Assembly (NCBI RefSeq): GCF_029626265.1
Contig: NZ_JARUBN010000001.1
Location: 372,001-436,000 of the forward strand
DNA: 64,000 nucleotides
From: Micromonospora sp. WMMD1102
Lineage (GTDB): Bacteria; Actinomycetota; Actinomycetes; Mycobacteriales; Micromonosporaceae
Direction of reading: 5' to 3'
The notes under the pieces are model-generated. The model was not told the origin of the DNA. It saw only the letters and a list, made by a program, of their open reading frames with translations, and did not search any database. This document shows positions 36,388 to 51,751 of this stretch, in pieces (the first letter of the stretch is position 1; each line of letters opens with the position of its first letter). A program made the translations under genes and the position numbers.

Positions 36388-39300
36388 GTGGCCGTCGTCG
36401 AGAGCCGGGTGAGCGTCTGGGAGGCTCTGGCCGGTCGTGCCCCGGGCAGGCCGGTCGGACCGGCCGACCGTGGACTGTGGACCGCCGTCGTCGAACGGCT
36501 GAACCCGGCCCGGGCCCGCCCGGTGCTCCGCCCCGGCATCGAGCGCGCCGAACTGGTCTCGGTGCGCGGCGTGCCGTACGTGATGCTCCGTTCGCCGGAC
36601 CCCGGCGGCAACGCCTGCTACCTGCGGCTGTCGCCGGAGGAGTGGCGGCTCGCCGAGCTGATGGACGGCACCCGCACGGTCGCCCGGCTGGTCGCCGAGT
36701 TCGCCCGGATCGCCGGCCGGCTCGCCCCGGAGCAGGTGACCCGGGTCGTCGCCGACCTGGCCGGCAACCGGATGCTGGCCGAGCTGCCGGTGGACGCGTT
36801 CCGGCCGCTGGACCGGGTGCACCGGCGACCCTGGCCGGTGCGGCTCGGCCGGGGGCTGCTCGCCGCCGCCAAGGGGCAGCGCACGGTGGTGGCCGACGTG
36901 AACCGGCTGGTCGAGCTGGTCTACCGGGCCGGTGGGCGGCTGCTCTTCACCCGGGTCGCCGCCGGGCTGCTCGGCGCGGTGGCCCTGGCCGGGCTGCTGC
37001 TCTTCGGCTGGACGTGGTGGGCCGGCAGCCAGTCGCTGTTCCTCACCGACGGCTCGTACGCGGCCGGTGCGGCGGTGCTGCTCGGGCTGAACGTACTCGC
37101 GCTGGCCTGTCACGAGCTGGGGCACGCGCTCGCCACCAAGCACGCCGGTCGGCGGGTGCCGGCCGCCGGGTTCCTGGTCTACTTCGGCATCCCGTCGGTG
37201 TTCGTCGACACCACCGACGTCTGGATGGCCGGTCGCCGGGCCCGGATGCTGACCACGGCGGCCGGTCCGGCGGCCGGACTGGTGCTGGCCGGTCTCGCCC
37301 AGCTCGTCGGCGTACTGGTGCCGGAGGCGGCGCCGTGGACGTTCAAGCTCGCCTTCGCCTGGTATCTCAACGCCCTGTTCAACCTGAACCCGTTCCTCGC
37401 CCTCGACGGCTACTACCTGCTGATGGACTGGTTGGAGATCCCCAACCTGCGTGCCCGTGGCCTCGCCTGGCTGCTGGCCAGGCTGCGCCGCCGCCCCCCG
37501 GGCTGGGCGCAACTGGACCGGGAGGGCCGGATCGTCGCCCTGTACGGCACCCTGGCCCTGCTCTGGGTGGTCGTCGCCGTCAACCTCGGCTGGCGGATCT
37601 GGACCGACCGGGTCGCCGGGCTGGTACTCGGACTGTGGCGCTCCGGCTGGCCGGCCAGGCTGCTGCTCGTGGCAGTCGTCGCCGGGCTGGCCGCCCCGCT
37701 CGTCTACCTGGTCGCCGGCTGGCTCGCCCGGCGGGTCCGGCGGCTGCGTGCCCGCTGGGCGGAGCGGCGGCAGCGGCTGGACCTGCCCCGCCGGCTGGAC
37801 GCGCTGCGTACCTCGCCGCTGGGCCGGCTGCCCGAGGCGACCCTGGCCGAGCTGGCCCGGCGGGCCCACTGGGTACGTCCGCGTACCGGTCAGCAACTGG
37901 TCTTCGCCGGTGCCGCGCAGTCGACGGTCTTCGTGGTCGTCGACGGCGCGATGGAGGGCCGGCAGCCGGGTGACCCGGGCGGGCTGGTCCGGCAGCGGCT
38001 CGGCCCCGGCGGGGTGGTCGGGCTGGCCAGCGCGCTCACCGGCACCCCGGCCACCCTCGACTGGCACACCGCCGGGACGCTGCTGCTGGGGTTGCCGGCC
38101 CCGGCGGTGGTCGTCGGGGTCGGGCCGCTGCCCGGCCCGCCGCCCAGCGAACGGGCCGCCGCCGAGACGCTCTTCGCCGAGGCTCCGGCGCTGCGCGGGC
38201 TCAGCGCCGAGGACCGGATGGGGCTGGTTTCCGGCGCCCTCGTCTCGTCGGTCGCCGCCGGTGACCCGATCGTGCTCGCCGGGCCGAACGACGCGGTGGT
38301 GGTGGAGTCCGGGGTGATCGAGCTGCCGGACGGCACCCAGCTGCGCCGGGGCACCCTGATCGGCCCGGCCGGGGAGGGCGAGCCGGGTACGGTGGCGACC
38401 GCGCGTACGCCGGTCCGGGTCTGGGCGCTGCCGGCCGTCACCGGCCTGCCGCTGCTCTTCGACACCTCGGGCGGCGCGACCCCGGCCGCCCCGCCCGGAC
38501 CCGGCACACCGGGCAGCCCGCCCCGGGCCGGCGTCCACCCCGACGGCGGCTATCCGCCGCTGGCCGCCCCGCCCGGACCGCCGCCGCCGCAGGCGGACCC
38601 CGACGTCGACCGTCGCTTCGAGCGCCGGCTCTGGTGGCTGGTCCTGCTCCTGTTGCTGCTGGCCCTGCTCAGCACGGCCGCCAACCTGGTCCCCGGCCCG
38701 GCCTGGGCGGAGATGCCCGCCGACCGGGCACTGCTCAGTGCCGAGGAGGGAACTGTCGACACGACCGTGGACGGCCGGAGCCTGCTGCTGGCCGAGGGCG
38801 AGCGGAGCTACGTCTCCGAAGGTGACCAGATCCGGCTGCCGGCCCGGTCCCGTGCCGTACTGACCTTCCGGGGCGGTGCGACGGTGACGTTCTGCGCCGG
38901 CTCCCGGGCCGTACTCGGACCACTGTGGAGCGACGGCGGGCGGACCGTCACCCCGCACGGCCGGCTGACCCTGGACACCGGGCGGATGGTCGCCGACACC
39001 GAGAGCCCGAGCGGTGCCTTCGAGCCACTGGCGCTGCTGGTGGACCGGACCGGCGGCGGGATCGGCAACCGCGGAGCGGCCCGGTACGCCGCCTGGACCC
39101 GGGGGATCGAGGTCTCCACCGGCGAGGTGCGGGTCACCGGAGTACGCCAGCCGGAGCAGCGCCGCCCGCTGGGCTGCGGCGGTGGTACGGCGCCGGACGG
39201 CACCGGCTCGTCCCCGACAGGTACCCCGGACGAGCCGGAACCGACGACCGGCCTGCCGTTCCCGACCCCGACGGCATCGGTGAGCGCCACCCCCGGCACT

Positions 39301-39810
39301 CCCGGGCCGACCCCGGCCACCCCGGGCAGCACCCCGACCGGCACGTCCAGCACCCCGGCTACCACCCCGACCACCGGCCCGCCGAGGACCCCGCCGCGCA
39401 CCACACCTCCGCCCACCAGCGCCGCCCCGACCACCCCGCCGGCCAACCGGCCACCGGTGATCAGCTGGCAGCGCGACCCGGGCGGCACGCTGAGCCAGCA
39501 GACCGCGAGCGGCGGCTGCACCGAGCACCCGACCACCACGACTGCGGTGGTGAACGTCTCGGACGACCGGGACGCCGGCCAGTCCCTGGTGGTGACCGTG
39601 CACTGGAGCGGCTTCGCCAGCGGCTCGGCCCGGATGTCCCCGGACGGCGCCTACTACGGCACCGTCGGGCCGGTGCCGTACCCCGGGCAGGACAACCGGG
39701 GCGGCACGCTCGACGTCTGGGTCACCGCGACGGACAGCCAGAAGGCGGAGTCCACCCTGGCGGGCAGCCCGATCACGGTGGCCGGCTGCACCCAGGTGAC
39801 CATCAGGTGA
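36388..39810 (+). CDS. RRE/PqqD-like, M50 metalloprotease, cNMP-like, FecR-like membrane protein
   Basis: A 1140-aa protein. Residues about 45-145 form a PqqD-like winged helix (CYLRLSPEEWRLAELMDGTRTV), the RiPP-recognition fold. Membrane helices carry the site-2-protease motif HELGH (His242, Glu243, His246) and NPFLALDG (Asp340), so all zinc ligands are present. Two degenerate cyclic-nucleotide-binding-like jelly rolls follow (about 495-590 and 600-695), then a Pro-rich linker, a membrane helix (about 752-772), a FecR-like extracytoplasmic domain, a Pro/Thr tail and an Ig-like end with two cysteines. The GTG at 36388 has GGAGGG upstream. It probably processes or exports a peptide; the substrate is inferred. 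Confidence 0.85.
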   Translation: MAVVESRVSVWEALAGRAPGRPVGPADRGLWTAVVERLNPARARPVLRPGIERAELVSVRGVPYVMLRSPDPGGNACYLRLSPEEWRLAELMDGTRTVARLVAEFARIAGRLAPEQVTRVVADLAGNRMLAELPVDAFRPLDRVHRRPWPVRLGRGLLAAAKGQRTVVADVNRLVELVYRAGGRLLFTRVAAGLLGAVALAGLLLFGWTWWAGSQSLFLTDGSYAAGAAVLLGLNVLALACHELGHALATKHAGRRVPAAGFLVYFGIPSVFVDTTDVWMAGRRARMLTTAAGPAAGLVLAGLAQLVGVLVPEAAPWTFKLAFAWYLNALFNLNPFLALDGYYLLMDWLEIPNLRARGLAWLLARLRRRPPGWAQLDREGRIVALYGTLALLWVVVAVNLGWRIWTDRVAGLVLGLWRSGWPARLLLVAVVAGLAAPLVYLVAGWLARRVRRLRARWAERRQRLDLPRRLDALRTSPLGRLPEATLAELARRAHWVRPRTGQQLVFAGAAQSTVFVVVDGAMEGRQPGDPGGLVRQRLGPGGVVGLASALTGTPATLDWHTAGTLLLGLPAPAVVVGVGPLPGPPPSERAAAETLFAEAPALRGLSAEDRMGLVSGALVSSVAAGDPIVLAGPNDAVVVESGVIELPDGTQLRRGTLIGPAGEGEPGTVATARTPVRVWALPAVTGLPLLFDTSGGATPAAPPGPGTPGSPPRAGVHPDGGYPPLAAPPGPPPPQADPDVDRRFERRLWWLVLLLLLLALLSTAANLVPGPAWAEMPADRALLSAEEGTVDTTVDGRSLLLAEGERSYVSEGDQIRLPARSRAVLTFRGGATVTFCAGSRAVLGPLWSDGGRTVTPHGRLTLDTGRMVADTESPSGAFEPLALLVDRTGGGIGNRGAARYAAWTRGIEVSTGEVRVTGVRQPEQRRPLGCGGGTAPDGTGSSPTGTPDEPEPTTGLPFPTPTASVSATPGTPGPTPATPGSTPTGTSSTPATTPTTGPPRTPPRTTPPPTSAAPTTPPANRPPVISWQRDPGGTLSQQTASGGCTEHPTTTTAVVNVSDDRDAGQSLVVTVHWSGFASGSARMSPDGAYYGTVGPVPYPGQDNRGGTLDVWVTATDSQKAESTLAGSPITVAGCTQVTIR

Positions 39811-39819
39811 GGAGACGCA

Positions 39820-40035
39820 GTGCTCTGTTGGTTCTGTCCGAAGGCGGCCCGGGGCGGGTGCCGGTTCTGCGGGCGCGGCCTCTGCGAGGACCATGCGCGG
39901 TTCGGCCCGTACCTGTTGCAGGTGCACCGTTCCGAGACGCGCGGCCGGGCCGAGGCGCTGGTGGTGGAGGACGCCCTCCAGTGCGGCACCTGCCGGCCAC
40001 GCCCGCAGCCGGTGCCGATGCCGGAACTGGACTGA
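39820..40035 (+). CDS. small zinc-binding protein coupled to the M50 protease
   Basis: A 71-aa protein with eight cysteine/histidine-type ligands early on (CWFC, CRFCGRGLCEDH) and a second CGTC pair near the C-terminus, resembling a B-box or treble-clef zinc finger. It starts 9 bp after the protease stop, with GGAG between, so the two are surely co-transcribed. It may help recognise the protease or its substrate. I do not know a characterised homologue. Confidence 0.82.
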   Translation: MLCWFCPKAARGGCRFCGRGLCEDHARFGPYLLQVHRSETRGRAEALVVEDALQCGTCRPRPQPVPMPELD

Positions 40036-40189
40036 TCCCGTCCGCAGGCCTGTCGGTCCCGTTCGGGGTACCCCGTCGTCCCCTTCTCGTCCGTCGCAGG
40101 GTTCGCCGTCCGGTCCGTCGGGCCGATGTCCCGGGCTGGCGGTGCCCGGATAGCCTGGGGACGCCCCGGCGGGTGCGAGGAGGCGGCAC

Positions 40190-41221
40190 GTGAGTGACTT
40201 CGACGACGTACTCGAACGGCTGGTAGGCGATCCGGCGTTCGCCGCCGCCCTCGCCGCCGACCCGGTGCACACCCTGGCCGGCTACCGGCTCGACGCCGAC
40301 GAGTTGGCGCTGCTCCGGCTCCAGGTCGGCGGCAGCGGCGACGGTCAGCACGGCGTCGAGACCCGGGCCAACCAGTCGAGCCTGTTCGGCATGTTCAGCC
40401 CGCTCGCCGGGCTGGCCGGCGCGCTGCCCACCCCCGGCGGGTTCCCCACGGCGGGTGGGTTGCCCACGGCGGCCGAGGTCGGCGGCGCCGGCCTCGGACC
40501 GGCCGGGGGTGGCGGCGGCAACGCACCGGCGGTGACCCAGGGCTTCGGGGCGGCCGGCGGTCCCGGTGACGGCGTGCCACCGCTGGCCGGGGCGTCGGGC
40601 TGCGCGGCGCCGGTCGGGCCGGGCACTGCCGGCGTACCCGTGGGTGGGCTGGGCGGGCTCGGTGACGAGATCGGCCGGGAGCTCGGGGCGGCCACCGACG
40701 GGGCGCTGGCGCAGCCGGCGGGCGGCCTGGCCGGCGCGCTGGCGGACCCGGACGTCGGCCTCGCCGCCGCACTGGCCGGCGCCGAGTCCGGGTTCGGGCC
40801 GGCGCCCGGACCGGGGTTCGGGCCGCCGGCCGAGGTCGGGTTCGGGTCCGCGCCCGAGCCGGGAACGCCGGCCGAGGAGGGCTTGGGACCGGCCGGACCA
40901 CCTCCCGGCGCGACGGAGGCCGAGCCGGCTCTGCCGGCGGGCTACCGGACCCGGGTCGACGTCGACGGCGACGGCGACTGGGACAGGCACACGTTGCGGG
41001 GCCGGGCCGACGGCGGGGTGGACATCCTGGTCGACCTCGACCGAGACGGGCGGACCGACTTCGTCGGTCACGACCTGGACGCCGACGGGCTGGTCGAGAT
41101 CAGCGAGTACGACAAGAACCGTGACGGCTTCTTCGAGAAGCGGATGTACGACGACGACGGCGACGGCTGGATGGACCGGACCGTACGGGTCGACCCGCCG
41201 CCGGCCGGCAGCACCCGCTGA
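40190..41221 (+). CDS. protein with leader-like N-terminus and calcium-binding-like repeats
   Basis: A 343-aa protein without signal peptide or membrane helix. Residues 1-45 (VLERLVGDPAFAAALAADP, then TLAGYRLDADELALL) resemble the helical leader-like N-termini of Nif11/LigA-like precursors. A long Gly/Ala/Pro-rich region (about 60-245) contains FGP-type repeats. The C-terminal 95 residues carry five DxDxDG-type loops (DVDGDGDWD, DLDRDGRTD, DLDADGLVE, DKNRDGFFE, DDDGDGWMD). GAGGAGG precedes the GTG. Standing behind an RRE-bearing protease, it is the best candidate for that protease's substrate; this is inference. Confidence 0.83.
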   Translation: MSDFDDVLERLVGDPAFAAALAADPVHTLAGYRLDADELALLRLQVGGSGDGQHGVETRANQSSLFGMFSPLAGLAGALPTPGGFPTAGGLPTAAEVGGAGLGPAGGGGGNAPAVTQGFGAAGGPGDGVPPLAGASGCAAPVGPGTAGVPVGGLGGLGDEIGRELGAATDGALAQPAGGLAGALADPDVGLAAALAGAESGFGPAPGPGFGPPAEVGFGSAPEPGTPAEEGLGPAGPPPGATEAEPALPAGYRTRVDVDGDGDWDRHTLRGRADGGVDILVDLDRDGRTDFVGHDLDADGLVEISEYDKNRDGFFEKRMYDDDGDGWMDRTVRVDPPPAGSTR

Positions 41222-47812: not shown

Positions 47813-50800
47813 GTGACCGCGTCCGTGAACCCGAACCCGAACCCGACCGCGTACCCCTGTCCGGTGTGCGGTGCCGGTGCCGACCTGGCGACCGGCTGTC
47901 CCGGCTGCGGCCGGGGACCCGATCCGGCCGCCGCCGAGGTGGTCCGGCTCGGTGCGGAGATCACCGCGCTGGCCGGGCGGGTGGAGCAGGCGCGGCGGGC
48001 GTACCTCGGACTGGACGCCACCCTGTGGCAGCTCCGGCGGCGCCGCGACACGCTGGCCGAGCAGGTCCGGGCGGCGGCGGCCGTCGCCGTGCGGGTCCCG
48101 GTGAAGAGCTTCCCCGGCGCACCGGCGGCCACCTTCGGCCCCGCCGGCACGCCGGCCCCGCAGGCTTCCGCACCGGTACGCCCGGAAGCCTCCACCCGGA
48201 CCGTGCAGAACCTGCTCTTCATCCTCGGCGGGCTGCTGGTCGGCACGGCGGCGGTCGTCTTCACGGTGGTCGCCTGGGCGGCGGTCGGGACCGGCGGTCG
48301 GGCCCTGATCCTCGGTGTGCTGACCGCGCTGGCCCTGGCGGCTCCCCTGCTCGCCCGGCGGCGCGGGCTCACCGCCACCGCCGAGACGTTCGCGGCGATC
48401 GGCCTGCTCCTGGTGGTGCTCGACGGGTACGCCGGCTGGGCCGTCGACCTGTTCGGCGTGGCAGGCTGGCCCAGGGTCCGGTACGCGGCACTGGTGCTCG
48501 GGGTCGGCGCGGTGGTGGCGGGGGGTTACCACCGATTGACCCGGCTCGCCGCGCCCGCGTTCGCCGGACTGCTGCTGCTCCAGCCGGTCGTGCCGCTGCT
48601 CGCCTACGACGCGGGCTTCGGCGCGGCCGGCTGGACTGTGGCGCTGGCCGTACTGGCGGCCGTCAACCTGACACTGACCCGGGGGCGGGACGGCGACGGA
48701 CCGGCGGACCCGGTGACCGTGGTCCGCCGGTCCGTCGCCTGGGTCGGATACGGAGTGGCCGGTCTCGCCTCGGCGCTCTGCGGGACGCTGGCCGTGGTCA
48801 CCGCCGACGGCCCGCTCGCGGTACTCGCCGGTGTTCCGCTGCTGGTGGCGGCCCTGCTGCCGATCGCCGGAGCCGTGCGGCTGCGCAGCACCGCCGCCGG
48901 AGCCGGCGCGGCGGCCCTCTTCGTCGTGGTACTGGCGGTGGCGCTGGTCCGGGCCGCCGCCGAGGCATCCTGGCCGCTGCTCCTCCCAGCCGCCGTGATC
49001 GTCGCGCTGCTCGCCGCCGCCGTCACGGCCACCGCCCGGCTGCTGCCGGCCGGCATCCGGATCGGTCCCCGGGCCGGCGGGCTGGTGGTGGCCGGCGCCC
49101 TGGCGCTGCTGACCGGCTCGATGGCGCTGGTGGTCGGGCTGGCCGTGGCGGCACGCTCGCAACCGGCCTGGCGGGCCGAGCTGACCGCCCGGTCCGGCCC
49201 GTTCGACTGGCAGCTTCCGGTGGCGCTGCTGCTGGCGGCCGGGGCGCTGGCCCTGCTGGGCCGGCGGCGGAACCGCCCGGTTGTCGCGATCGCCGCCGCG
49301 ACCCTCACCGTGCTGGCGGCGCCGGCCGGGCTGGCCCTGCCCTGGTGGCTGGTCGCCACCCTTGACCTGGTGGCGGCCGGCGTCCTCGCGCTGGCCGCCG
49401 GGTGGCCGCACCGCGGCCCGCGCCCGGTGCTGCCGGCGGCGGTCGCCGCGCTGCCACTGGCCGGGCACGCCCTGCTGGTCGGCCTGGCCCGGCCGGCGGG
49501 TGCCGCCGCCGTCTGCGGCGCGCTGGTACTGCTCGGCGCCGCGGTCGCACTGGCCGCCCTCCGCCAGCCCACCCCGGCCACGCCTCCGACCGCCGACGCC
49601 GCTGCTCCGGCCGTCGGTGGTACGGCGGTGCCCGCTGGGGCGGCGCTGCGCCGGGTGGTCGGCGGGACCGGGCTGGCGGTGGCGGTACTCGCCGCTCCGG
49701 CGACCGTCCTGCTCGGACTCTTCGCCGCCGGGGTGCCGCCGTGGTGGCAGGCGCGGGCCGTGCTCGCCGCTGCCGTACTGCTCGCCGCCGGGTTGGTGCC
49801 GGTGCGCCGGGCGGCCCCGCACTACCGGCCGTACGCCAACGCCGCGCTGTCGACCGTCGCGCTCGCCGTCGGCCTGGCACCGGGACTGCCCGGGGTCGGC
49901 GAGCCGGCTGGCCCGTACGCCGCCGGGGCGCTGCTGCTCACTCTCGGCGTCTGGTTGGCGGGGCGGGGTCGGCCGACGCGGTCGGCCGGTCCGGAGCAGT
50001 GGCCCAGGGCAACCGGGGTACCGGCACTGTTCTCCGGGGCGGTGCTGCTCGTCCGGGCCGCCGTGGTGGCGGTACCGGCGGTGCTGGTCGTGCTGGTCGC
50101 CCCGTACGCCTGGTTGGGCCGGATCTGGTCGGGCCCGCCGGCCGGGGTCGGACTTCACCCGGTCGGCACCGGTCCGGTCGACTGGCGGCTGGACGCGGCC
50201 GACGTGCTGACCCTGCTGCTGCTCACCGTCGCGGCGGCGGTCGCCGGCTGGGCACGCGGGCGGACCGTCCGGGCTGCGACGCTGGCGGCGGCTCCGCTCG
50301 CGGCCGGCACGGCACTGGTCGGGCTCGCGGTCGCCGGGGCGCCGTGGCCGGTCGTACCCGCGTCCAGCCTGCTCGCCGGGGCCGCCGGCCTGCTCGCGCT
50401 GGCGCTGCGGCCCGGCACCGCCCCCGCCGTGGCATCGGGGGGCGGCACAGCGTCCGCCGTGGCGCCGGAGGGCGGGGCCGCGTCCGTCGCGGCAACAGCG
50501 GACAGCACTGCTTCCGCTGCGGCACCAGCGGGCGGCACTGCGTCCGGCTCGGCGGCAGGGGGCGGCACTGCGTCCGGCTGGGCAACAGGGGGCGGGGCCG
50601 CGCCTGGCGTGGTGCCGGGTGGTGGTGTCGGGTGGCGGCTCTGGCTGGTACCGGTGGGGGTCGCCTTCGTGGCGGCGGGCCTGGCCGGGCTGCTGCCGAC
50701 CCGTGCCGGCACGCTCGGCGGGCTGGCGCTGGTCGGCGTGGCCGGACTGGCCGCCGGAGCGCGCGGCGGCACCTCGGCGGCGCGGGTGGCGGGGTGGCTG

Positions 50801-51751
50801 ACCGGGGTCGCCGGCACGGCGTCGCTGGCTGCCACCGCCACGGTCGCCGCAGACCTGCCGCTGCGGCTCACCGCCCTGGCGGTGCTCGGCGTCGCCGCCC
50901 TGGCCCTGGCCCTGGCGACCCTGCTGGCCGGCCCTCTCACCGGCGCCCCACTTCCGGCTGGCACCCCGGGCGGGGCAGGCACGTCGGCTCCGGCTGGCAC
51001 GTCGGGCGGGGCTGGGACGTCGGTCCCGGCTGGCAGGTCGGTGCCGGCTGGTGGTCGACGGCGGTGGGGGGCCCGGGGGCCGGAGCGGCGGGGCGAGGCG
51101 GCGGCCGTCGAGGTGGCCAGTCATGTCACCGCCGCGATCGCGCTGCTGCTGACCGTCGGTGAGATCCGGTACGCGGCGGCGGTCTGCACGCTCTGGGGGG
51201 TGGCACTGGGACTGCGTGCCCTGCGGCCGGGCGAGCCGGCGCCGCACCGCTGGGCTCGGGCGGCAGCGGCGGGTGGTGCCGAACTGGTCGCCGCCTGGCT
51301 GCTGTTCGCCTCGGCCCGGGTGGCGCTGGTCGAGGCGTACACGCTGCCGGCGGCGGTGCTGGGAGTGCTGGCCGGCTGGCTGGCGCTGCGGGCCTGGCCG
51401 GCGCTGAGCAGCTGGGTCGCGTACGGGCCGGGGCTCGGTGCCGCACTGCTGCCGAGCCTGGTCTCGGTCGTGGTCGCCGCCGACCAGCCGTGGCGACGGC
51501 TGCTGCTCGGTGCCGGCGCGCTGGCGGCGGTACTTGTCGGTGCCCGGTGGCGGCGGCAGGCGCCGGTGCTGCTCGGCGGTGCCGTACTTGCCGTACTGGC
51601 CGTGCGGGAGATGGTCGACGTCTGGGACCTGCTGCCCCGGTGGATCTTCCTGGCCGTCGGTGGCTTCGCGTTGATCGGTCTGGCGATGACGTACGAGCGG
51701 CGGCGCCGGGACCTGCGCCGGCTACGCGCGGCGGTACACCGGATGAGCTGA
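47813..51751 (+). CDS. giant polytopic membrane protein, SCO7613-like
   Basis: A 1312-aa protein. It starts with a zinc ribbon (CPVCGAG, CPGCGRG; about residues 16-35) and a coiled-coil segment (about 42-90). From about residue 135 nearly everything is hydrophobic, with roughly 30 or more predicted membrane helices joined by Gly/Ala/Pro-rich linkers. Around residues 870-940 a low-complexity stretch repeats GGTAS-type units. It matches a family I recall as 'SCO7613 C-terminal domain-containing membrane protein'. No function is known. The continuous frame with strong third-position GC argues for a single gene. Confidence 0.87.
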   Translation: MTASVNPNPNPTAYPCPVCGAGADLATGCPGCGRGPDPAAAEVVRLGAEITALAGRVEQARRAYLGLDATLWQLRRRRDTLAEQVRAAAAVAVRVPVKSFPGAPAATFGPAGTPAPQASAPVRPEASTRTVQNLLFILGGLLVGTAAVVFTVVAWAAVGTGGRALILGVLTALALAAPLLARRRGLTATAETFAAIGLLLVVLDGYAGWAVDLFGVAGWPRVRYAALVLGVGAVVAGGYHRLTRLAAPAFAGLLLLQPVVPLLAYDAGFGAAGWTVALAVLAAVNLTLTRGRDGDGPADPVTVVRRSVAWVGYGVAGLASALCGTLAVVTADGPLAVLAGVPLLVAALLPIAGAVRLRSTAAGAGAAALFVVVLAVALVRAAAEASWPLLLPAAVIVALLAAAVTATARLLPAGIRIGPRAGGLVVAGALALLTGSMALVVGLAVAARSQPAWRAELTARSGPFDWQLPVALLLAAGALALLGRRRNRPVVAIAAATLTVLAAPAGLALPWWLVATLDLVAAGVLALAAGWPHRGPRPVLPAAVAALPLAGHALLVGLARPAGAAAVCGALVLLGAAVALAALRQPTPATPPTADAAAPAVGGTAVPAGAALRRVVGGTGLAVAVLAAPATVLLGLFAAGVPPWWQARAVLAAAVLLAAGLVPVRRAAPHYRPYANAALSTVALAVGLAPGLPGVGEPAGPYAAGALLLTLGVWLAGRGRPTRSAGPEQWPRATGVPALFSGAVLLVRAAVVAVPAVLVVLVAPYAWLGRIWSGPPAGVGLHPVGTGPVDWRLDAADVLTLLLLTVAAAVAGWARGRTVRAATLAAAPLAAGTALVGLAVAGAPWPVVPASSLLAGAAGLLALALRPGTAPAVASGGGTASAVAPEGGAASVAATADSTASAAAPAGGTASGSAAGGGTASGWATGGGAAPGVVPGGGVGWRLWLVPVGVAFVAAGLAGLLPTRAGTLGGLALVGVAGLAAGARGGTSAARVAGWLTGVAGTASLAATATVAADLPLRLTALAVLGVAALALALATLLAGPLTGAPLPAGTPGGAGTSAPAGTSGGAGTSVPAGRSVPAGGRRRWGARGPERRGEAAAVEVASHVTAAIALLLTVGEIRYAAAVCTLWGVALGLRALRPGEPAPHRWARAAAAGGAELVAAWLLFASARVALVEAYTLPAAVLGVLAGWLALRAWPALSSWVAYGPGLGAALLPSLVSVVVAADQPWRRLLLGAGALAAVLVGARWRRQAPVLLGGAVLAVLAVREMVDVWDLLPRWIFLAVGGFALIGLAMTYERRRRDLRRLRAAVHRMS

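Follow-up and report, generated by a model that had tools for sequence, protein, structure and literature searches.

A row of three genes in Micromonospora sp. WMMD1102 probably encodes a leader-guided membrane-protease module, in which the RRE (RiPP recognition element; RiPP, ribosomally synthesized and post-translationally modified peptide) of an M50 membrane protease docks the leader of a client protein and the protease cuts the client near a conserved box. The genes lie in a 64,000-nucleotide stretch of contig NZ_JARUBN010000001.1 (positions 372,001 to 436,000), here called the window, as consecutive plus-strand open reading frames (ORFs) for proteins of 1140 (36388-39810), 71 (39820-40035) and 343 amino acids (40190-41221), hereafter the protease, the zinc protein and the client. 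The first two ORFs are separated by 9 nt and the last two by 154 nt. Each is present as a single copy in its own genome, and the closest relatives of the window proteins are Plantactinospora proteins. A first-pass annotation of the sequence had reported this trio, which we confirm, and had proposed that the RRE binds the leader and the membrane protease processes it. That proposal still appears to be the best reading and is partly supported; of the three outcomes named beforehand as refuting it, none was observed. A membrane site-2 protease with a leader-docking domain, a near-constant zinc protein and a frequent leader-bearing neighbor is most simply a leader-dependent processing enzyme. The features of the locus are as follows.

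36388-39810, plus strand: RRE-M50 membrane protease gene, 1140 amino acids, GTG start (NF041824, 118.1 bits; cut-off 300)
36508-36789, plus strand: PqqD/RRE-like winged helix, residues 41-134
36790-37752, plus strand: M50 site-2 protease core and transmembrane (TM) region, residues 135-455 (profile matches, model and alignment)
37111-37125, plus strand: HELGH zinc-binding motif, residues 242-246
37402-37410, plus strand: LDG motif, residues 339-341
37768-38454, plus strand: two cyclic-nucleotide-binding-like jelly rolls in tandem, residues 461-689 (the window lineage lacks the phosphate-binding cassette)
38599-38688, plus strand: predicted TM helix, residues 738-767 (sequence and model)
38719-39135, plus strand: beta domain on the extracytoplasmic side, residues 778-916, FecR-like by eye (model)
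39448-39807, plus strand: C-terminal beta domain behind a Pro/Thr-rich stalk, residues 1021-1140 (model; 36% mean identity)
39820-40035, plus strand: 71-amino-acid zinc-motif microprotein with conserved tail PRPQPVPMPELD
40190-41221, plus strand: NHLP-leader client protein, 343 amino acids (profile matches)
40190-40327, plus strand: NHLP/Os1348-type leader, residues 1-46
40355-40375, plus strand: conserved box V56-E-T-R-A-N-Q62, general form R-x-[STN]-[KQR] (R59 does not vary among 11 aligned leaders)
40376-40426, plus strand: conserved small/hydrophobic stretch behind the box, SSLFGMFSPLAGLAGAL (homologue comparison)
40427-40939, plus strand: variable Gly/Ala/Pro-rich linker with GFGPA-like repeats (homologue comparison)
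40940-41179, plus strand: domain of five DxDxDG calcium-type loops

Conserved co-occurrence of the three genes had been named beforehand as a test, and it proved very strong. Among 121 Micromonosporaceae genomes, the genome of the window included and the lists compiled by hand, the zinc protein was found in 54 and a type I protease (that of the window) in 56. Both occurred in 54 genomes, the protease only in two, the zinc protein only in none and neither in 65 (Fisher 1.6e-32). Any protease match was seen in 81 of the 121; the 56 counted are those with alignment rows of at least 55% identity, among them one genome counted by a partial match (G005) and one by a copy that does not adjoin its zinc gene (G024). 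In the latter a zinc-NHLP pair (L053) sits at a separate site with no protease found beside it, and in three genomes (L050, L051, L052) there are type I-like protease copies of 65-67% core identity with no adjoining zinc or NHLP gene. The client is not regularly lost: in 53 zinc-protein loci its gene lay at most 200 nt downstream of the zinc gene in 47, 2.2 kb off in one and was not adjacent in five, of which two (L054, L055) are apparent real losses, one has a broken frame, one has the gene on another contig and one is at a contig edge. The gap between the zinc and client genes is -1 in four pairs.

The linkage extends beyond the family. In 396 Actinomycetota genomes from hand-set lists, both genes were found in 20, the protease only in three, the zinc protein only in two and neither in 371, a count that leaves out the type II genomes described below (G302, G198, G220), weaker M50 matches (such as G143, G291 and G128) and the marginal zinc match of G220; G136 and G211 have weak zinc relatives. 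When 50 chosen genomes were scanned with the leader family NF038399 at E<=0.01, a match was found in 9 of 25 genomes with the protease, in none of two with a zinc relative only and in 2 of 23 controls, which include G143 and G128 with their weaker M50 matches. One of the two control matches is presumably a true nitrile hydratase, judging by its CTLCSCY motif. The match adjoins the protease gene in six of the nine positive protease genomes, on the opposite strand in the case of G145. When named genomes were scanned with the zinc protein as the sole query, 237 relatives came up, and the best 80 of the 237 were studied as loci. In 70 of these best 80 a protease gene lay on the same strand no more than 2.2 kb away (Micromonosporaceae 30/31, Chloroflexota 20/27, deep or untyped metagenome-assembled genomes (MAGs) of Actinomycetota 17/18, four other records 3/4), and an NHLP gene was nearby in 48 (30/31, 18/27, 0/18 and 0/4, respectively). 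These taxon groups were assigned by hand from record titles, a few of which say merely 'bacterium', and some of the contigs are loci of our other sets. Gene order differs, with the NHLP gene upstream in L154, L243 and L268, which counts against mere synteny. By these sequence comparisons, the protease, zinc protein and NHLP protein form a real unit.

The client begins with a leader of a known clan. Its residues 3-43 match the Os1348/NHLP leader family NF038399 (E 1.3e-7), and several close relatives are annotated as Os1348 family NHLP clan proteins. A profile of 11 leaders matches nitrile hydratase 1v29 (E 1.9e-6) and the Os1348 crystal structure 6lk7 (E 6.1e-6), and weakly NHLP 8tb1 (E 0.017), with the unrelated-looking XaxB next at 0.04. 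The helical leader had been placed in the first 45 residues. These matches bear that out, but conservation extends to about residue 62, where the R-x-[STN]-[KQR] box closes the conserved part. The box was found just behind the leader in 93 of 101 distinct NHLP ORFs, against about five expected from shuffles that preserve composition only; since these ORFs are mutually related, 93 is not a tally of independent events. By group it was present in 57/57 type I Micromonosporaceae ORFs, 11/11 of type II, 5/5 other actinobacterial, 19/27 Chloroflexota and 1/1 from an Acetobacteraceae MAG, at 57-60 residues from the start of the leader match in actinobacteria and 52-57 in Chloroflexota. The eight ORFs without it read EERKS (seven) or EKRISMS (one), and L152, L153 and L157, below the E threshold, are excluded from the 101. 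Since only 48-residue leaders of types I and II went into the training of the leader profile, neither the box nor the Chloroflexota matches formed part of that training. Reversed ORFs gave no matches, compared with 62 among 15119 ORFs. NHLP-like matches also occur away from proteases; of those read, two (L203, L208) are without the box and one (L210) carries it, and that of L205 is masked. A GG pair at client residues 47-48 is not conserved in homologues (e.g., L079, L082 and L088). The type I client ranges from 233 to 613 amino acids across 49 proteins, window included, and the five C-terminal DxDxDG loops first seen in the window have counterparts in all of them (four to six loops in 49/49).

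The protease has the signature of an M50 site-2 protease, HExxH plus N..P...xDG. Residues H242, E243, H246, N332, P335, D340 and G341 do not vary across the alignments of 43 type I and 12 wide sequences, the window protein included; the core is intact, as first noted. By analogy with the family, D340 of the LDG motif would be the third zinc ligand. PF02163 is matched by all 12 wide members at E<=1, the best at 3.4e-9. In the 43-row alignment the RRE averages 82% identity to the window protein, on par with the catalytic core (79%), compared with 49% and 32-36% for the outer parts. The PqqD/RRE-like character of the N-terminus is indirect, through relatives and a structural model. The region aligns with PqqD-matching relatives at an hhalign probability of 97.6% (E 3e-12, one comparison), two of the 12 wide members match the PqqD Pfam family, and type II relatives score 22.6 and 21.8 bits against a cut-off of 23.4. 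The model has a beta3-alpha3 topology (strands 52-57, 63-68 and 78-81; helices 83-90, 98-109 and 114-126). The two jelly rolls do have the cyclic-nucleotide-binding fold, as had been proposed, but in the window lineage they have lost the phosphate-binding cassette: where the consensus is FGE...PR.A, the window protease reads VGLASALTGTPATLDW. The cassettes are kept in 6/6 deep relatives aligned, and two strong cyclic-nucleotide domains (135-166 bits) were found in 4/4 proteases scanned, three from Chloroflexota and one deep. For the supposed FecR-like domain the model gives an outer beta domain, but no Pfam family matches it at E<=1.

The zinc protein is 71 amino acids long in the window and in 52 of the 53 Micromonosporaceae loci, the remaining one (L120) being cut by a contig end, and its C-terminus there reads MPELD or IPELD. 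In 14 aligned Actinomycetota sequences the residues of the CxxC, CxxC, CxxH and CxxC motifs and the tail PELD are invariant; three deep Actinomycetota members carry three extra residues beyond PELD, and the Chloroflexota proteins read have different C-terminal ends. Small zinc proteins of the B-box, DUF2180 and C5HCH kind share the CxxC ... CxxC ... CxxH pattern, and the DUF2180 and C5HCH matches are weak. The protein is conserved enough to serve as a hook for genome mining.

In type II relatives a zinc ribbon, an FHA domain, the PqqD/RRE and the M50 core are fused in one protein of about 600 amino acids, which adjoins NHLP-leader proteins. Two of the latter match TSP3 weakly (16.6 and 20.0 bits, cut-off 25), and at some type II loci a Ser/Thr protein kinase gene follows. 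Loci L056-L058, L060, L061 and L064 represent this second system in Micromonosporaceae, and some of their NHLP proteins end in a Gly/Ala-rich hydrophobic stretch. The same Zn-FHA-RRE-M50 arrangement with an NHLP-leader protein directly after it is found at L152:7891-12616 and L153:8188-10252. In L152 the NHLP-leader protein bears an M23 peptidase domain (45 bits) and is part of a phage-tail or contractile-injection-like context, with Baseplate_J and PASTA genes immediately upstream of the locus. In Chloroflexota the NHLP proteins exceed the NF038399 cut-off (63.1-64.9 bits in 3/3 scanned). At L284, genes for an M50 protease, a zinc protein, an NHLP peptide and a RiPP radical-SAM methyltransferase (TIGR03975, 650.8 bits) stand in a row. 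In the Anaerolineae loci L243:8830-9447 and L268:8485-9986, several short NHLP peptides, some with NHNQSAL/NHNESML-like tails, lie by the protease-zinc pair.

The best-known setting of NHLP leaders is that of RiPP products cut by C39 transporters at Gly-Gly; that of RRE-fused site-2 proteases is the daptides. What appears to be new here is that an NHLP leader meets an RRE-fused site-2 protease on a protein-sized client, with no modification enzyme found nearby. The first-pass annotation knew of no described system with this gene order; we likewise found no description of the trio in the open-access literature, but a daptide parallel exists. According to PMC10036551, the daptide leader is removed by the RRE-dependent intramembrane peptidase MpaP, an RRE-fused site-2 protease, and by this parallel the window protease would cut likewise. 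The daptide peptidase MpaP/DapP (NF041824) has the same order of RRE and M50 and takes the leader off a ribosomal precursor in Actinomycetota; its model is the closest curated one (residues 77-431). The window protease nevertheless scores far under its equivalog cut-off and adds jelly rolls, outer domains and a companion zinc microprotein. The flanking ORFs scanned encode BON, GT4, HtrA-like, histidine kinase, response regulator, PadR, DUF4097, ABC ATPase, protein kinase, patatin and acyltransferase proteins. Among them there is no daptide aminotransferase, dehydrogenase, methyltransferase or DapB gene, and in place of a daptide precursor (short, with an ELExMEAP leader and C-terminal Thr) the neighbor is the NHLP-leader client; no search for either was made in the remainder of the genome. 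These ORFs include no RiPP modification enzyme, the rest of the genome and the flanks of relatives not having been searched systematically, so the peptide maturation first suggested for this locus may be proteolysis only.

The first ~45 residues of the client belong to the clan of NHLP, Os1348 and Frankia_peptide families (NF038399, PF14407, TIGR03793), and it differs from them in its size, its calcium-type loops and its RxSK-type box in place of the conserved Gly-Gly. Haft et al. (PMC2887384) describe the Gly-Gly site and argue that NHLP leaders are conserved because a transport system handles them, with modifying enzymes as the usual users of these leaders. The Gly-Gly site is not conserved here and the flanking ORFs scanned include no C39 peptidase transporter, so the M50 enzyme may take the transporter's place. 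An NHLP leader engages the RRE-bearing enzyme MprC (PMC12455567), and RiPP precursors are processed by the M50 enzymes EpeP, TglG and TmoG (PMC10885120), with EpeP thought to do both cleavage and export. The epipeptide enzymes YydH/LiaK/EpeP (NF058609) and the pearlin enzymes TglG/TmoG are thus likewise membrane M50 enzymes that act on RiPP precursors, although their substrates and domain make-up differ; the YydH/LiaK model matches window residues 231-352 at 43.4 bits, short of its curated cut-off of 225.

In the mechanism we propose, cytosolic synthesis would yield a client whose NHLP-type leader (residues 1 to ~60) is folded, and the N-terminal winged-helix RRE of the protease would bind this leader. 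Docking would set the box (VETRANQ here, RxSK in many relatives) and the short hydrophobic stretch behind it at the membrane-embedded zinc active site, and a cut in the box region would release a leader-free client. With a tail that is nearly constant in Micromonosporaceae, the zinc microprotein may be a dedicated third subunit, either adaptor or regulator, and the jelly rolls, or the FHA and kinase parts of relatives, could gate the protease by cytosolic signals. The repetitive, DxDxDG-ended client probably acts outside the cell, as suggested by its calcium-type loops and by the M23 domain in one relative (L152).

Several observations weigh against this mechanism. The window proteins score under the curated cut-offs of NF038399, NF041824, PF02163, PF00027 and PF14407. 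The leader reaches 31.6 bits where the NF038399 cut-off is 40, and E 5.8e-4 against Frankia_peptide PF14407; the protease reaches 10.9 bits as a whole protein and 20.0 bits as a core against a PF02163 gathering score of 27.2, and neither whole protein nor core matches the PqqD Pfam family. Neither a signal peptide nor a TM helix is evident in the client (maximum 19-residue hydropathy 1.26), and no exporter is part of the conserved gene set, secretion genes not having been searched systematically. The box is missing from the NHLP-like ORFs that adjoin proteases in G145 and G269 (L202, L201), L054 and L055 keep the protease and zinc protein with the NHLP gene gone, and ten of the best 80 zinc-protein loci show no protease, four of them at contig edges. 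The deep Actinomycetota loci have protease and zinc protein and no NHLP gene by the leader profile (0/18), so the leader type is not universal. Their client slot may be filled by another leader type: 11 of the 18 encode a peptide of 38-55 amino acids with a KK-[IV]-x-PK start, a pattern written after examples had been seen. In nine of these 11 loci the peptide gene follows the zinc gene at a distance of about 140-185 nt, and in eight the peptide carries R-V-[ST]-K. These short basic peptides (L211-L214, L216-L219, L221, L224, L225), many with ATRV[ST]K, include two in tandem with differing tails in L224, like RiPP precursors. Part of the linkage in Micromonosporaceae is also shared descent, as synteny there is broad and often takes in the downstream ABC gene. 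That the three genes are neighbors through descent alone, with no functional link, is nonetheless hardly credible given their presence and absence in lockstep, their linkage across Actinomycetota and Chloroflexota with differing flanks in the loci read, the domain fusions and the varied gene orders.

The other alternatives grant the genes a joint function. The protease could be a sensor of regulated intramembrane proteolysis, its outer beta domains sensing wall or calcium and its jelly rolls a ligand, with the leader protein as a regulator whose cleavage signals. The layout of outer and inner domains is sensor-like, type II proteins carry FHA and some have a kinase gene beside them, and Crp-like genes lie near the deep relatives L155 and L156. 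We consider this unlikely, as the conserved trio includes no transcription or sigma factor, the client is repetitive, variable in length and ends in calcium-type loops, and the Anaerolineae loci bear several short precursor-like peptides. A conventional RiPP pathway, in which enzymes encoded elsewhere in the genome modify the client and the M50 enzyme merely removes the leader last, would suit the usual service of NHLP leaders to modifying enzymes and the radical-SAM gene of L284; it is quite unlikely in view of the scanned window flanks, which hold no such enzyme, and of a 343-amino-acid client with a conserved C-terminal loop domain. Alternatively, the protease could be a translocation or anchoring platform: docking by the leader would bring the client to the membrane, another machine would export it, and protease catalysis would serve a different step. 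This would accommodate calcium-type loops on a client without an evident signal peptide, the normally extracellular M23 domain of the L152 protein and the export attributed to EpeP. It is highly unlikely, since the HExxH and LDG residues are strictly conserved, and no secretion gene was noticed as kept with the trio, although no systematic search was made.

If leader-guided cleavage is correct, leader/RRE recognition would be an addressing code for the membrane proteolysis of proteins, more general than RiPP work has assumed, and the box with its invariant R59 makes the cut site directly testable. More tentatively, and with more doubt than confidence, the loci might represent a cross-phylum leader-addressed route, in which an RRE directs whole proteins, and not small peptides alone, to an intramembrane protease gated by signals. 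This protease would cut at an R-x-S-K box and have a dedicated zinc microprotein for its third subunit. Such a route could work without modification enzymes and, as one machine for very varied payloads (calcium-loop proteins, TSP3-like proteins, an M23 peptidase and short peptides), would stand in for the C39-peptidase ABC transporters known from NHLP leaders.

Two other loci and one more window gene were recorded. At L250:4253-10249, titled as a Methanosaeta MAG and possibly mis-binned, the protease and zinc genes overlap by a few nucleotides, and radical-SAM-like genes lie upstream (one scanned). L169:9373-10064 has three short tandem ELEMQELExLEAPG peptides by an M50 gene; they resemble the daptide leader motif ELExMEAP and give the locus the look of a daptide locus. 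Elsewhere in the window, positions 47813-51751 encode a 1312-amino-acid membrane protein with a SCO7613 C-terminal domain (195.8 bits).

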